From Bacillus sp. MM2020_4 (lineage in GTDB: Bacteria; Bacillota; Bacilli; Bacillales; Cytobacillaceae), in NCBI RefSeq assembly GCF_011250555.1, contig NZ_JAANMZ010000020.1, positions 1 to 64,000 of the forward strand: DNA of 64,000 nt, read 5' to 3'. This document shows, piece by piece, positions 47,580-53,331 of the stretch. Position 1 is the first letter of the stretch. Each line of letters opens with the position of its first letter. The translations under genes and the position numbers were made by a program. Under the pieces are notes generated by a model that worked only from the letters and a program-made list of their open reading frames with translations, searched no databases and was not told the origin of the DNA.

Positions 47580-47613
47580 TGGCTGCCATGGGATTCCCTG
47601 GCAGCCATTTTTT
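47580..47613. terminator. Terminator of the cupredoxin gene
   Basis: TGGCTGCCA/TGGCAGCCA stem followed by seven Ts on the plus strand; the convergent PepSY-like gene ends within the T-run. Confidence 0.88.
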
Positions 47614-48155
47614 TAGTTTGCTATGCTATCTAAGCTATCATTTTGGCGTTTCTTTCGTTTACCTTCGGCACGGAGAACCTTACTAGATAGGTAGATTCCC
47701 GACCCAGTAAGAACTATCATCGCTAGTGCTGTTAGATCAATCAACCACTTAATGTTTGTGTTGCCAATTCTACCTTCGTGTAGACCTCTGATCGTGCTAA
47801 GGAAAGACCCTTGACCCATTCCTCCTCCGCGTATTCCACCAGCGATATTTCCATTCCCGTTAAATCCTGACGATCTTTGGAATGGGCCACTTTCAGTTGA
47901 ACCAATTTGCCCCTGTATCTGAGTATCTTGTCTTGAATTCTGGCTAGAATTAGAAGTGGTTCCTTGCTCAGCTTGTCCCTGATTAAAAGGCCCTCGATTA
48001 AATTGGCCCGGTTGGAAGTTTCCTCTCCTGCCTTCTACCTGTGATTGCCCGATTAACCATGGCTCATTCATCACCAATCCCGTAATTGACTCCATCAAGA
48101 TAAGAATTGAAGCAATTAAGCCAATCCATAAATGCGCTCTTCTCATTTTCTTCAT
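47613..48155 (-). CDS. PepSY-associated membrane protein with Gly/Gln/Asn-rich loop (180 aa)
   Basis: Two-helix protein of the PepSY-TM-like kind: N-terminal RRAHLWIGLIASILILMESITG, an outside loop of about 90 residues rich in Gly, Gln, Asn and Ser, then GLHEGRIG and a second helix ending GSGIYLS. HLW and LHEGR blocks are typical of short PepSY-TM proteins. Relatives lie beside iron/haem or copper reductase-like and two-component systems. It has its own promoter with a direct-repeat box matching that of the adaptor operon at 53109. Ends in a basic tail. Function unknown. Confidence 0.75.
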   Translation of the reverse strand: MKKMRRAHLWIGLIASILILMESITGLVMNEPWLIGQSQVEGRRGNFQPGQFNRGPFNQGQAEQGTTSNSSQNSRQDTQIQGQIGSTESGPFQRSSGFNGNGNIAGGIRGGGMGQGSFLSTIRGLHEGRIGNTNIKWLIDLTALAMIVLTGSGIYLSSKVLRAEGKRKKRQNDSLDSIAN

Positions 48156-48197
48156 ACTTATTGTACTCCCTTCGAATTTACCTCATGCTTATATCAA

Positions 48198-48240
48198 TTG
48201 ATAAACTTATTATGAAGGGAATTCCTTAAGATAATCTTAA
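48198..48240 (-). promoter_or_regulatory. PepSY-gene promoter with response-regulator box
   Basis: Minus strand: TTAAGA-N5-TTAAGGAA (48222-48240), 18 bases, then TATCAA (48198-48203) as -10. The same layout occurs at 53159-53201. The box overlaps a perfect 15-bp palindrome TTAAGAT-T-ATCTTAA. Confidence 0.6.
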
Positions 48241-48241
48241 A

Positions 48242-48274
48242 AAAAAGCCCAATTACTATCTTTTTTGGGCTTTT
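48242..48274 (-). terminator. Terminator overlapping the histidine kinase gene end
   Basis: AAGCCCAA/TTGGGCTT stem followed by TTTTTT on the minus strand; the 5' arm is in the last codons of the kinase gene. It separates the kinase from the PepSY-like gene. Confidence 0.78.
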
Positions 48275-49512
48275 GGAAACGTGATTTCAATTGTTGTTCC
48301 GAGACCAACCGTGCTCTGCACTTTTGTTTTTCCGTGATGCTTCTCGATGATCCATTTGGCAATCGATAGTCCAAGCCCTGTTCCTTCAGCCGCTGTCCGC
48401 GTCTTATCACTTTGATAGAAACGGTCAAAGATTTTTGGGATATCTTTTTCAGGTATACCCATCCCGTTATCCTTTACCTGAAAGAAAATCGAAGAATGAC
48501 TTTGCTTGCACGTTAGCACGATTTCGCCGCCCTCTTTTGTATACTTTAGAGCGTTATCTACTAGAATAACAATCAATTGATGAATTCTTTCTTTATCTGC
48601 AAAAATTGTAACAGGCTCAAGCGCCTCTATCCGAAGTGACTTTTCTTGATACATCGCTATTTCTTCGTAGTGATGCATGATTTCCGTTAAAAGACTATCC
48701 AGTTGGAAGAGCGACTTTTTCATTTCAATTTGATCAGAATCAGATCTGGCTAGGGTTAATAAATTGGTTACTAGTTTCGAAAGTCTTCTTGATTCATTTG
48801 AAATCGTCGAAACATCAAGAATTTTTTCCTGTACAGTGGCAAATGGCGCCCTTAATAGCAAATCAGTTTTAGCCTGAATAACCGCTAGAGGCGTCCGTAG
48901 CTCGTGCGAGGCATCCGATACAAACTCCTGCTGCTTTTGCCAGGCATTTTTAATCGGAACCAATGCCCTTCCGGCTAAGAAATAACCCGAGGCAACAGCA
49001 CAAATGATTCCCACACCACAACCAATCAGCATAATCAACAACAGTCTGTCCAATAATTCTTTTTCCGAATTTACATTGCGAATAAATTGAACAGTCACGT
49101 TTCCAAGTTCAGGACTTACTACCTCGATGGCAACATATCGAAACGAAAAGTGTTCAACCTCTATATCCTGCAAGCTGTTTAATTTTTTTGGATGGACGAG
49201 TTCCTCATTATCTTGAAAAAGTTGAGAATCCCTTGTTTCTCCCGCTAAAAGCCGATTATTATCATCCCATATTAAAGTAATAATTCTTGGGTCTCTTCTA
49301 ACAAATCGAGGATCCCCATCGCCACCGCGAATATCTCCCGGACCTTTTGACAATTGTTGAAAATGATTAACAGATTCAAGTAAGGAATGATTTACATCCT
49401 TATACAGTTTATTATCGGTATAAAAATAAATAATGCATCCTAGGATACTAATTACAACTATAAAGACCAATGAATTTAACCATGTAAGCCTGATATGTGT
49501 TTGACGAAACAT
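48256..49512 (-). CDS. Membrane sensor histidine kinase (418 aa)
   Basis: Sensor partner of the response regulator encoded nine bases upstream. Two transmembrane helices (12-31 and about 157-181) frame an extracytoplasmic sensor of about 125 residues. Phosphoacceptor His203 in SDASHELRTPLAVIQ, N-box VILVDNALKYT, G1 DNGMGIP and G2 GTGLGLSIAKW are intact. Genes for an adaptor/ABC efflux system lie just upstream, so it probably senses the substrate of that pump or envelope stress. Confidence 0.92.
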   Translation of the reverse strand: MFRQTHIRLTWLNSLVFIVVISILGCIIYFYTDNKLYKDVNHSLLESVNHFQQLSKGPGDIRGGDGDPRFVRRDPRIITLIWDDNNRLLAGETRDSQLFQDNEELVHPKKLNSLQDIEVEHFSFRYVAIEVVSPELGNVTVQFIRNVNSEKELLDRLLLIMLIGCGVGIICAVASGYFLAGRALVPIKNAWQKQQEFVSDASHELRTPLAVIQAKTDLLLRAPFATVQEKILDVSTISNESRRLSKLVTNLLTLARSDSDQIEMKKSLFQLDSLLTEIMHHYEEIAMYQEKSLRIEALEPVTIFADKERIHQLIVILVDNALKYTKEGGEIVLTCKQSHSSIFFQVKDNGMGIPEKDIPKIFDRFYQSDKTRTAAEGTGLGLSIAKWIIEKHHGKTKVQSTVGLGTTIEITFPKAQKR

Positions 49513-49521
49513 TTGCTGCTC

Positions 49522-50193
49522 CTATTCTACATTCAACATATAGCCGACGCCGCGGACCGTTTTTATATCGGTATGATACCCAAAGGGTTCTAATTTTTTC
49601 CGAAGATGATGCACAAACACTTCTACAATCGCAACGGTGGTATCAGAGTCAAACCCCCATACACGATCATAAATTTGCTCTTTCGTTAAAATAGCTCCTT
49701 TATTTTGGATCAAATATTCCAGGAGCACATATTGCTTGGCAGTCAGTTTTATCGACTCGCCATCAACTAAAATATCTCGTTCCTTACCCATTAGCTCAAT
49801 TCCCCGATATTGAATCGTTTGATTTGTGGTTAAACTGCCACTTCTTCTTAACAATGCCCGAATTCTTGCCTTTAACTCTGCTGCCTGAAACGGCTTAACT
49901 AAGTAATCATCGCCCCCACTGTCTAACCCCTTCACGCGATCCTCTAAAGAATCTCTAGCGGTAAGGAATAAAACAGGTATCTTTAATCCTTCTTTTCGGA
50001 TCGTTTGCAAGACCTCAAAGCCATCAATTTCCGGAATCATCACATCCAAAAGAATGGCATCATGAATATTTTGCATCGCTAGAAATAATGCATCTTCCCC
50101 GTTTGAGGCTTGATCGACCTCAAATTCATCTGATAAAAGCTGGACAATGGACTCAAGTAAGGGAAGATTGTCTTCAACTACTAATAAACGCAT
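49522..50193 (-). CDS. OmpR-family response regulator (223 aa)
   Basis: Receiver domain with acidic pocket E7-D8, phosphoacceptor Asp50 in LLDVMIPE, T78 in LTARD and Lys in LVKPF; C-terminal winged helix with VEVFVHHLRKKL and RGVGYML. Paired with the kinase that follows. OmpR-type regulators bind direct repeats one helical turn apart; two such boxes (48222-48240 and 53183-53201) flank the cluster. AAAGGAGAGG precedes the ATG. Confidence 0.94.
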   Translation of the reverse strand: MRLLVVEDNLPLLESIVQLLSDEFEVDQASNGEDALFLAMQNIHDAILLDVMIPEIDGFEVLQTIRKEGLKIPVLFLTARDSLEDRVKGLDSGGDDYLVKPFQAAELKARIRALLRRSGSLTTNQTIQYRGIELMGKERDILVDGESIKLTAKQYVLLEYLIQNKGAILTKEQIYDRVWGFDSDTTVAIVEVFVHHLRKKLEPFGYHTDIKTVRGVGYMLNVE

Positions 50194-50235
50194 TTCTACC
50201 TCTCCTTTATAAAAGGGAATTCACATCATTATATC

Positions 50236-50268
50236 GGAAATAAAGCGGACGCAATAGTAGCGATCCGC
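50236..50268 (-). terminator. Terminator of the adaptor-ABC operon
   Basis: GCGGATCGC/GCGTCCGC imperfect stem followed by TTTATTT on the minus strand, 12 bases after the permease stop. It may be leaky, letting transcription reach the two-component genes. Confidence 0.55.
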
Positions 50269-50280
50269 CTTATACCTGCT

Positions 50281-51447
50281 CTATTCATATCTTAGAGCTT
50301 GAATTGGATTTAGTTTTGAAGCTTTATTTGCAGGAAATACCCCAAATACAACTCCGACAACTAGCGAGAATAAAAAGGACAATAAAAGGACGGAAGAAGA
50401 AAATGAAACGCTCAACCTTAATAGTGTTGATAATATTTTCCCTAAGCCAACCCCCGCTATTATGCCAATGATTCCTCCGACACCACTTAACACAACCGCT
50501 TCAATCAAAAATTGAAGAAGGACATCCCGTCTTTTCGCGCCAATTGCTTTTCTAATTCCAATTTCCTTTGTCCGTTCCGAAACAGAAACGAGCATGATAT
50601 TCATGATGCCGATCCCGCCAACAAGCAAGGAAATGCTGGCAATACCTCCCAACATCATCGTCATGGTATCCGAAACAGAACTCATCGTGTCCATGATATC
50701 TTGCTGGTTTGTCACACTATAGGAATCACTCTTATTTGGATAAAGTGAAGCCATTGTCATTTTAATCTCATTCATCACAAAATCCATTTGATCCTCGCTT
50801 TTCCCCTGTAAATAGACCTGATTGATTGTCGAACTTTTTACTAAGCGCTGACCTGAGCTAAGTGGTACAATGACAACATTGTCCCCGCTCTGTCCCATTG
50901 AACTACCTTTAGAAACCAGCACCCCTACAACCTTAAACGATGTTCCTTCTATTTGGAGATATTGCCCCACGGGGTTTTCAGTTCCAAAAAATGTAGAAGC
51001 AGTATCCGCACCAAGAACGACAATCTTTTGCCGGTACTCCATATCAAGATCGGTAATAAAACGGCCCGCACTTACCGATGTATCTCGAACAGTCGAGTAG
51101 TCAGCATTCGTCCCAGTCAAGGTAACTTGTGAGGTTGTCCGATCTTTTTTCACATTCACACGTCCTGAGACGACCGGTGACACCGCTTTGACGCCGTCTA
51201 ATTTACTCAACGCACTAATTTTATCCTCTGTTAGGGCTACATCCGTTCCAAACGTATTGATTGTTAGTAGATTCGTTCCTAGCTGATTGATTTGACTAGT
51301 TACATTTCGTGCCGATCCCTGGGCTATCGAAACGAGAATGATAACCGAAGAAACCCCGATAATCATCCCGAGCATTGTTAGAGCAGATCTGAGTTTGTTC
51401 CCCTTTATACTACGCAGAGCCATTTTAATAGATTGCACGACTCCCAA
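50281..51447 (-). CDS. MacB/YknZ-type ABC permease (about 388 aa)
   Basis: FtsX-like permease of a tripartite-style exporter. N-terminal helix in [19 protein letters not shown], an outside MacB-type domain (about 60-265) and three C-terminal helices with [28 protein letters not shown], a strongly conserved family block. TTG at 51447 has GGAGGTGA five bases upstream and overlaps the ATPase gene by 23 bases; an ATG at 51480 lacks a site. Similar to B. subtilis YknZ, which helps resist the SdpC toxin; substrate here unknown. Confidence 0.9.
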
Positions 51448-52135
51448 TGTGTTCACCTCCACTCTCCTGCAATTGCCCATCTTGAATGCTTACCATTCGA
51501 TTCGCTTGTTTGGCAATTGCTAAATCATGAGTAATTAAAATAATCGTATGGCCCAATTCATTCAATTCTTTCATGACTTTTAAAATTTCCTTACTTGTTT
51601 TGCTATCGAGTGCACCGGTGGGTTCATCTGCAAGGAGAATAGCCGGATTGCTAACAAGGGCCCTTGCTATGGCTACCCTTTGTTGCTGACCGCCTGAAAG
51701 CTGGGTTGGTAAATGACCCGCCCGCTCTTGCAACCCAACTTTGGTTAAGCCGCCCAAGGCCCGTTCGCGTCGTTCCTTTGCTGGTACACCGGAGTACAGC
51801 AACGGTAATTCCACATTTTCAAGCGCAGTTAATTTCGTTAACAGATTAAAGTTTTGAAAAACAAAGCCGATTTTCTGATTACGAATAATGGCTAATTGGT
51901 TATCATTCATTTTCCCAATATCCTTACCATCGAGGAGATATTTACCTGATTGTGGCCTATCAAGGCAGCCAATCATATTCATGAGCGTCGATTTTCCCGA
52001 TCCAGATGGGCCAATAATGGCTAAAAACTCACCTTTTTCTATCTCAATTGATACATCATGTAAGGCATGTACCGTTTCACCACCAGGCATATAGGTTTTC
52101 ATGAGATTACTTATTTGAATGATTGGTCTACCCAT
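51425..52135 (-). CDS. MacB/LolD-type ABC ATPase, YknY-like (236 aa)
   Basis: ATPase of the exporter. Walker [12 protein letters not shown]-loop FVFQNFNLL, signature [15 protein letters not shown], Walker [13 protein letters not shown] and H-loop ITHD are intact. The start shares one base with the adaptor stop (TAATG), typical of tight coupling. [11 protein letters not shown] marks the mechanotransmission-type family that works with FtsX-like permeases. Confidence 0.94.
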
Positions 52136-53109
52136 TAGTTTCCACTCCTTCCACTCACTTGTCCGGGTCCACCTCCATTACGGTTCATTCCGCCCATGTT
52201 TCCCATACCTCCCATACCGCCGCCAAAACCGCCTTGCATCATTCTGCGGGAATTATTGGTGGAGTTCCCTGAAGCCAATTGAGGTAATTGAATCGTATCT
52301 CCTGCTGAAATACCTTCAGTAATTTCAACGTAATCTTCATTTGCTAGGCCTGTCTTCACAACTTTTTGCTCACTTCCAATGGTCTGGTTATCAGATCCGG
52401 ATGAAACTGCAAGAACATATTTTTCACCATTGGCAGTGTGAATTGCATCTAGAGGAACATAAAGAGCATCCTCTTTACTTGCTGTTAGAATACTTGCTTC
52501 GACACTCATTCCGACTTTGAGGCTTTCAGCGTTATCAATATGAATGGTGACATCAAATGTCGATACCCCATTAGTGGATATACCTTCATCAGCAACCGCC
52601 GATACTTTTCCCGTATATGTGTGATCCGGAGAAGCATTTACCTTTACATTAACAACTTGACCTTCTTTAATTTTACTAATATCAAGCTCATCAATTTGAA
52701 CCAATGTTTGTAAGTCTTGATAGTTTGTCACATGCGCAACAACTTGTCCGGAAGTAACACGCTCGCCAGCAGCTACGGAAATAGTAGTAATTCTCCCGGT
52801 AGCAGGTGCTGTAATTGGATCACTGCCATCTGTAAAGGTAATCAGTTCGTCCCCTTCCTTTACTTCCTCGCCCGTTGCCACTAACACTTCATCAATTTCC
52901 TCATTATTGCTAATTGATTTAATATCTGCACTTATGACCGGTTGAACTGTTCCTGATCCGCTAATATTAACTTCCAACTTCCCTTTTTGAACAACTGCCG
53001 TTCTCCCTTGAGACGTAGTGGTTTGGGCATTTGTTTTTGAGGAATACCATTGATAGCCGACAAAACCAACTACCAGAACCCCTACTCCTATTAAAATCCA
53101 TTTTTTCAT
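52135..53109 (-). CDS. Membrane-fusion adaptor protein, MacA/YknX type (324 aa)
   Basis: First gene of the efflux operon. One N-terminal membrane anchor (4-21), then the barrel-sandwich (lipoyl-like) halves [12 protein letters not shown] and [20 protein letters not shown], and the beta-barrel domain. The helical hairpin is very short or missing, as expected for a Gram-positive adaptor that needs no outer-membrane partner. The last 35 residues are a Gly/Met/Asn-rich tail ([16 protein letters not shown]), which may bind a metal such as copper. Promoter carries the direct-repeat box. ATG at 53109. Confidence 0.88.
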
Positions 53110-53158
53110 CTATGCTTACTCCTTTTCTAATCCTGGTCATCATGCCAGAATGTGTTTT

Positions 53159-53201
53159 AGAATAAGCCCATTATTCAGTTTGTTCCTTAACTTTTCCTTA
53201 A
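53159..53201 (-). promoter_or_regulatory. Adaptor-operon promoter with response-regulator box
   Basis: Minus strand: TTAAGG-N5-TTAAGGAA (53183-53201), 18 bases, then TATTCT (53159-53164) as -10. The left part lies in a 23-bp perfect palindrome AACTTTTCCTT-A-AAGGAAAAGTT (53189-53211). Confidence 0.6.
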
Positions 53202-53331
53202 AGGAAAAGTTGGGATGTTATAGTAGTCTAACGCTTTAGTATGGTGAAATAATTAATAATTGAAAAAATTCTTTCTTTTGTATAATATTCTGTTATATAA
53301 TAAGAAACATAAAGAATAAAGGGGGAAATTT

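Follow-up and report, generated by a model that had tools for sequence, protein, structure and literature searches.

Introduction

What ties an efflux pump, a two-component system and a small membrane protein together in one bacterial locus, and which regulator would control them? The question is raised by a gene module of Bacillus sp. MM2020_4, at 47613-53109 on the minus strand of the window, by which we mean the whole 64,000-nucleotide stretch analysed here (contig NZ_JAANMZ010000020.1, positions 1 to 64,000). In transcription order the module encodes an adaptor, a MacB-type ATPase, a MacB_PCD/FtsX permease, an OmpR-family response regulator, a sensor kinase and a PepSY_TM-like protein. The original prediction, made from the letters of this DNA, held that one OmpR-family-type site is common to two promoters of the module. 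We consider it likely that a two-component system of the type of streptococcal CiaRH controls the MacAB-like exporter and the PepSY_TM gene through a shared box, the regulator activating both transcripts. Both promoters carry the box at a ten-base spacing (N10) to a conserved -10, the box recurs before the same two gene families in other genomes, and the regulator falls in the clade of CiaR.

Results

At both window promoters there is a direct repeat of core TTAAG with a period of 11 bp (NTTAAG-N5-NTTAAG), and a -10-like hexamer lies ten bases beyond it. The elements are as follows:

53186..53202, minus strand: CiaR-type direct-repeat box TTTAAG-GAAAA-GTTAAG, upstream of the adaptor operon
53170..53175, minus strand: probable -10 AATAAT, 10 nt past the adaptor box, conserved at N10
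53159..53164, minus strand: TATTCT, the -10 proposed originally; within the probable start region, unconserved as a -10
48225..48241, minus strand: CiaR-type box TTTAAG-ATTAT-CTTAAG, upstream of the PepSY_TM gene
48209..48214, minus strand: probable -10 CATAAT, 10 nt past the PepSY_TM box, conserved at N10
48198..48203, minus strand: TATCAA, the -10 proposed originally; unconserved as a -10

The box letters given in the original prediction, TTAAGGAAAAGTTAAGGAA at 53183-53201(-) and TTAAGATTATCTTAAGGAA at 48222-48240(-), are present at both places. The natural register begins one base upstream of the start chosen there and yields TTTAAG-N5-GTTAAG and TTTAAG-N5-CTTAAG. From box start to start codon there are 93 bases at the adaptor and 86 at the PepSY_TM gene, and the repeat spans positions 27 to 11 bases ahead of the -10. 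A promoter scan listed no sigma-70-like -35/-10 pair at either promoter, which fits an activator-dependent promoter. WalR binds TGTWAH-N5-TGTWAH and PhoP repeats of TTAACA; both had been offered as models for the site and were rejected, the four half-sites of the window (TTTAAG, GTTAAG, TTTAAG and CTTAAG) having the form NTTAAG, as in CiaR.

Conservation of the boxes in orthologous loci had been named in advance as one point on which the shared-site idea could fall, and it held. We surveyed upstream regions with one hit per gene and locus, a hit start within the first 34 residues and at least 150 bases upstream; L071 (unboxed), loci with no adaptor hit and three loci from named genomes stand outside this survey. 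As a control, these regions underwent dinucleotide shuffling 30 times over. The box was found upstream of 56 of the 57 adaptor genes, as against a shuffled mean of 0.1 (at most 1), and upstream of 20 of the 30 PepSY_TM genes, as against 0.03. Upstream regions of the other genes were almost free of it: permease 0/49, ATPase 0/48, kinase 0/60, regulator 1/51 and cupredoxin 0/17.

The same regions locate the -10. A TATAAT-like hexamer stands at N10 in 43 of the 57 adaptor upstreams when at least 5/6 positions must match and in 55 when at least 4/6 must, and all 20 boxed PepSY_TM upstreams have one at N10 with at least 5/6. TATTCT and TATCAA do follow the originally chosen boxes after 18 bases and sit 21 bases past the box (N21), but at that offset a hexamer occurs in just 1/57 adaptor upstreams at the stricter threshold (12/57 at the looser) and in 0/30 PepSY_TM upstreams; we therefore rejected both as -10 hexamers. 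Alignment on the box brings out as conserved blocks the repeat, whose spacer is A-rich, then the -10 and, right after it in the adaptor promoters, a weaker AGGCTTAT; this weak block accounts for the T-A-T hexamer picked out at the adaptor promoter.

The pattern holds in sets drawn in other ways. All 38 adaptor matches with E < 1e-50 outside the window genome were fetched, together with one weaker match (G006, L071) and to the exclusion of other weaker ones, and the box lies upstream of the adaptor in 38 of these 38. Beyond the family, stretches taken from around related regulators of the order gave 18 adaptor-bearing loci, of which 17 are boxed and one, L331, is not. A search of the contigs of named genomes left three useful loci of 80, the rest holding remote regulators; these three, from Bacillus norwichensis, Bacillus sp. 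BA3 and Sporolactobacillus shoreae, are boxed too, with weaker -10s in the last two (GATACT and TACACT).

The small-protein branch varies in its arrangement. In several families (G046, G092, G093, G113, G174 and G312) and in Bacillus sp. BA3 a second box lies near the kinase, before a small protein with a Gly/Asn/Gln-rich loop and two membrane segments (by eye), on the other strand in the case of G174. For G057, G135, G215, G265 and G287, the box stands at the head of the regulator operon by way of a 90-93-residue protein with one membrane segment (by eye) and a Gly-rich tail. Nine of the ten unboxed PepSY_TM genes follow the adaptor or the permease directly on the same strand (L033, L046, L049, L050, L051, L052, L054, L058 and L061) and are, because of this position, probably under the adaptor's box. 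In L033, from G005 and closest by adaptor, a truncated permease runs into the PepSY_TM gene and the adaptor box is intact; the regulator, the kinase and the PepSY_TM box are missing there.

Two similar boxes in AT-rich upstream DNA might resemble each other by chance and carry no meaning, and counts of the box by itself leave room for this. The box pattern exactly as first written matches twice in the genome of 4,909,066 bases, both times at the module, and so does its reversed control; with up to two mismatches it was found 5 times in the window against a shuffle mean of 2.48, which is not significant, and the looser NTTAAG form has 6 matches in the genome against 18 for the control. Since control patterns are as frequent or more so, a box alone proves little and its position is what matters. 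With the -10 included, the counts separate: TTAAGN6TTAAGN11ATAAT has 2 matches in this genome (G000), both in the module, against none for the control, and 98 against 2 across 60 genomes, this one included. Among the 98, of whose remaining hits a part was fetched, are some that belong to a second regulator type and some that stand before other genes, and promoters like those of L053, L063 and L064 escape the exact ATAAT. On these full-site counts, and on the counts of boxed adaptor and PepSY_TM genes against shuffles, we rejected a chance origin, to which we assign next to no probability.

The regulator was placed in a tree of 106 response regulators. A clade of 68 (local support 0.983) unites it with five CiaR proteins and with a second Bacillales type that we call RR2, and it groups with CiaR apart from the other OmpR regulators of its cell. 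Genomes of 1.2-2.3 Mb supplied the five CiaR proteins, which were identified by the helix VVEVYVSKIRKKL printed in PMC3091779. Among the first 20 of 47 regulator matches in this genome, the window regulator has the highest identity to CiaR in the DNA-binding domain (41%; next 29%), and its recognition helix, IVEVFVHHLRKKL, has 8 of 13 residues in common with CiaR, the best of the 20.

Regulator and site tend to occur in the same genomes. Of 299 genomes sampled across the order, 33 had both a relative of the regulator, RR2 counted in, and an exact full site, 241 had neither, 13 had just the regulator and 12 just the site, a count not corrected for ancestry; with the window's genus left out the figures are 31, 241, 13 and 12. 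Among the nearer 60 genomes, 25 have a regulator at least 59% identical, and 24 of these 25 have an exact full site, G049 being the exception. A plasmid search returned 10 records with regulators at 41-48% identity. In regulator-bearing stretches with no adaptor (L345-L348, L350, L396 and L397) the box heads the regulator operon instead.

Family searches give the module and its surroundings the following features:

52135..53109, minus strand: RND_mfp/HlyD-type adaptor with a Gly/Met-rich C-terminal tail (family matches)
51425..52135, minus strand: MacB-type ABC ATPase (family match; best solved chain 5xu1_A)
50281..51480, minus strand: MacB_PCD + FtsX permease (family match)
49522..50193, minus strand: OmpR-family response regulator of the CiaR clade, type RR1 (family match and tree)
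48256..49512, minus strand: sensor histidine kinase with HisKA and HATPase_c, final gene of the operon (family match)
48243..48274, minus strand: hairpin, probable intrinsic terminator, over the final kinase codons and the bases past the stop (-11.5 kcal/mol, z -2.61)
47613..48155, minus strand: PepSY_TM-like protein, two membrane segments (by eye) flanking a Gly/Gln/Asn-rich loop
46683..47576, plus strand: membrane cupredoxin gene, convergent neighbour with no box (family match; 0/17 upstreams boxed)

An RND-type adaptor, a MacB-type ATPase and a MacB_PCD/FtsX permease are thus encoded in one predicted operon, the gene set of a MacAB-like exporter. The adaptor scores 116.1 bits against TIGR01730 (cut-off 94.9); apart from this, the rows listed in the NCBIfam scan of the module proteins held only names below cut-off. 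PDB 5xu0 and 5xu1, which we take to be the MacAB-like pump of Streptococcus pneumoniae (Spr0693-0695), likewise have adaptor, ATPase and permease as separate proteins. Chain A of 5xu1 is the best solved match of the window ATPase and the 5xu0/5xu1 pump ranks fourth for the permease, whereas the window adaptor matches 5xu0 weakly (E 1e-6). The PepSY_TM-like protein scores 47.9 bits against PF03929 (gathering cut-off 28.8). Its likeness to PF03929 proteins is confined to the membrane region, and it differs in its Gly/Gln/Asn-rich loop; no PepSY domain model matched it at E 0.001, and no relative was found among solved structures at E up to 1.

From the spacing of the genes, adaptor, ATPase, permease, regulator and kinase are predicted to be co-transcribed. 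The kinase and PepSY_TM genes are separated by 100 bases. A hairpin and T tract, the latter extending into the second box, end the kinase gene, so that the PepSY_TM gene would need a promoter of its own and is likely to form a separate transcript; the hairpin, with a loop of 12, is absent from a terminator scan whose loop limit was 8. A copper link through the neighbouring cupredoxin gene had also been put forward. That gene is unboxed in all 17 upstreams, which leaves the link unsupported, and we rejected a copper regulon through it.

Discussion

The site, its spacing and the regulator together recall the CiaRH system of streptococci. The CiaR site is reported as TTTAAG-N5-TTTAAG, refined to NTTAAG-N5-TTTAAG, and CiaR-activated csRNA genes were sought with TTTAAG-N5-TTTAAG and a TATAAT-like -10 ten bases later (PMC3091779); binding of CiaR to its repeat is also reported (PMC8317062), and in Streptococcus agalactiae replacement of the second half-site is reported to reduce such a promoter sharply (PMC9603419). 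The likeness extends to NTTAAG-N5-NTTAAG, a -10 at N10, an OmpR-family regulator of the same clade and feedback on the system's own genes (PMC3091779, PMC8317062). The targets differ: an exporter operon and a PepSY_TM gene in the window, whereas those reported in streptococci include csRNAs and htrA. CiaH homologues, for their part, are reported in streptococci only (PMC3091779).

A closer parallel comes from Bacillus anthracis, in which BAS0540 is described as the nearest CiaRH homologue. In gel shifts it is reported to bind DNA from upstream of two genes, its own and one for an RND-family adaptor, both listed with TTTAAG-N5-TTTAAG, and to bind more strongly when phosphorylated (PMC4938410). 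Like the window system, BAS0540-BAS0541 is CiaR-like and has this type of box both at the regulator's own gene and at the gene of an RND-family adaptor. It differs in that regulator and adaptor (BAS0540 and BAS5106) have distant locus tags, as against one operon in the window, and the word "PepSY" is absent from the main text of the published account (PMC4938410), whereas the window module has a PepSY_TM branch. The peptides MRLLVVE, RVKGLD and LRRSGSLT, encoded by the published BAS0540 primers, are all present in the window regulator and in 21, 29 and 28 of the 106 tree proteins, respectively. None occurs in the aligned segments of 19 other regulators of the genome or in the five CiaR proteins; many of those segments lack the first residue, which makes the absence of MRLLVVE weak, and the other two peptides are internal. 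This sharing suggests, indirectly and from primer-encoded peptides as opposed to whole proteins, that the window regulator may be an orthologue of BAS0540.

Does the regulator activate or repress? In the repressor scheme the box overlaps the promoter and the bound protein blocks polymerase until a signal arrives. The box does occupy the -35 and spacer region, where a bound protein could block, and manLMN is reported to be under negative control by CiaR; the other direct CiaR targets, however, are reported as activated (PMC8317062), the N10 geometry is the one used to find CiaR-activated csRNA promoters (PMC3091779), and neither window promoter had a sigma-70-like -35 listed. Repression is, in our judgement, very unlikely, and we prefer activation.

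Several observations weigh against control by a CiaR-type regulator. L071, the weaker adaptor match, has no box anywhere in its 14 kb, and the L331 stretch has none either. The second half-site opens with G in the adaptor box and with C in the PepSY_TM box, not with T, whereas the streptococcal csRNA promoter logo nearly always shows T there, this base being replaced just twice in the promoters of 24 verified csRNAs (PMC3091779). In the tree, RR2 joins CiaR first (0.998), before the type of the window regulator, which is for this reason a relative of CiaR and not a strict orthologue. The helix score of 8/13 was also reached by 4 of 12 regulators inspected in other genomes and is weak alone; these four lie outside the clade and reach the score with VVDVYIRYVRKKI in three cases and HVEVQISFLRKKL in one. 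In the sample of the order, 13 regulator-bearing genomes have no exact full site, and 8 of the 12 with a site and no regulator belong to one family with a palindromic variant. G005, G008, G016 and G017 have a boxed adaptor and a best regulator match just 39-41% identical. For this organism, finally, the scheme is predicted from sequence.

Those last four genomes, with no clear regulator orthologue, may have lost the regulator or may use another at the box, and they lend something to an alternative in which some other OmpR-family regulator of the cell is the main protein at the boxes while the adjoining regulator-kinase pair controls something else. So do the paralogous cassettes L050, L052, L054, L061 and L062, in which another regulator, 35-38% identical, stands behind the boxed genes. 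This alternative sits poorly with the co-occurrence of sites and regulator relatives across the 299 genomes, with the boxes at the head of regulator operons where the adaptor is missing, and with the reported in vitro binding of this box type by BAS0540 (PMC4938410), whose three peptides recur in the window regulator. We regard it as unlikely. The boxed genes very probably form one regulon under a relative of streptococcal CiaR.

The original prediction thus fares well on the boxes, on their shared control and where it named the OmpR-family gene within the boxed operon as the likely regulator. In this genome the two promoters have the only exact full sites, but as a general rule its picture of a self-contained unit is unsupported, since related genomes hold further boxed genes and four of them keep a boxed adaptor with no clear regulator orthologue.

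We propose the following scheme. The kinase (48256-49512) would sense an envelope cue and phosphorylate the regulator (49522-50193), which would then bind the direct repeat NTTAAG-N5-NTTAAG. The repeat, ending 10 bases ahead of the -10, would substitute for a -35, and the bound regulator would activate two transcripts, one running from adaptor through ATPase, permease and regulator to kinase and the other the separately terminated PepSY_TM gene. As regulator and kinase lie in the boxed operon, the circuit would probably include positive autoregulation. In Streptococcus pneumoniae, CiaR, CiaH and their targets are reported to go up with the defensin hBD3, LL-37 and the detergent CTAB (PMC7694020). 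Because of this response and the best match of the window ATPase to 5xu1, membrane-active compounds may be both inducer and export substrate, a reasonable first guess and no more. Both promoters could serve as reporters for finding the inducer.

A well-studied streptococcal promoter grammar, N10 spacing included, would thus reach Bacillales, where it would mark a regulon that is widespread and can be tested, and a MacAB-like exporter and a PepSY_TM protein would be tied to one regulator. What keeps the small PepSY_TM protein linked to the exporter is a second box in some loci and its place in the operon in others, and the protein therefore probably works with the pump or the kinase. More tentatively, much of Bacillales could possess a CiaR-type core regulon of exporter and small Gly-rich membrane protein, kept by promoter grammar despite gene moves, in which the small protein is a third signalling component, a feedback or sensing partner of kinase or pump, and not a passenger. 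A CiaR-type regulon had already been glimpsed in Bacillus anthracis; added here are the grammar of the promoters and how widely it occurs, together with the PepSY_TM branch and the regulator's position in the tree. Literature searches combining CiaR, TTAAG and Bacillus found no paper, and those combining PepSY, MacB, two-component and Bacillus found nothing related. A 2008 study by de Been reportedly treats response-regulator site motifs in Bacillus cereus and its relatives and may already hold this motif, and given this study we do not claim the Bacillales motif as unpublished.

Other boxed genes and regulator types

RR2, the second type in the CiaR clade, was found near divergent promoters in G027:C83 (L260), G032 (L271), G015 (L277), G003 (L272), G161 (L351), G272 (L352) and G088 (L357). 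Its boxes are mostly TTTAAG-GTTNN-TTTAAG with the -10 at N10, and the genes downstream in L260, L271, L272 and L277 presumably encode, by the look of the sequence, a CotH-like lipoprotein and a VTC-like polyphosphate polymerase. The palindromic variant, TTAAG-AAATTC-TTAAG with AATAAT at N10, occurs in eight genomes of one family (G045, G091, G127, G156, G183, G207, G258 and G324); in the two loci read, L283 and L362, the gene behind it encodes a further OmpR-family regulator, with about 34% identity to that of the window.

Paralogous boxed adaptor cassettes with no close copy of the regulator beside them were seen in L045, L046, L049, L050, L051, L052, L054, L058, L061 and L062, and most have a PepSY_TM gene directly behind. 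Two loci from outside the order, L396 and L397 (G475 and G616), each have one box immediately before a regulator-kinase pair and another one after the kinase. In L278 (G012) and L275 (G019) a Gly/Met/His-rich membrane protein, a candidate member of the regulon, lies behind a box with its -10 at N10, and in L281 (G004) an MFS transporter gene starts 188 bases past a full site that agrees with that genome's adaptor site at every one of 32 bases.

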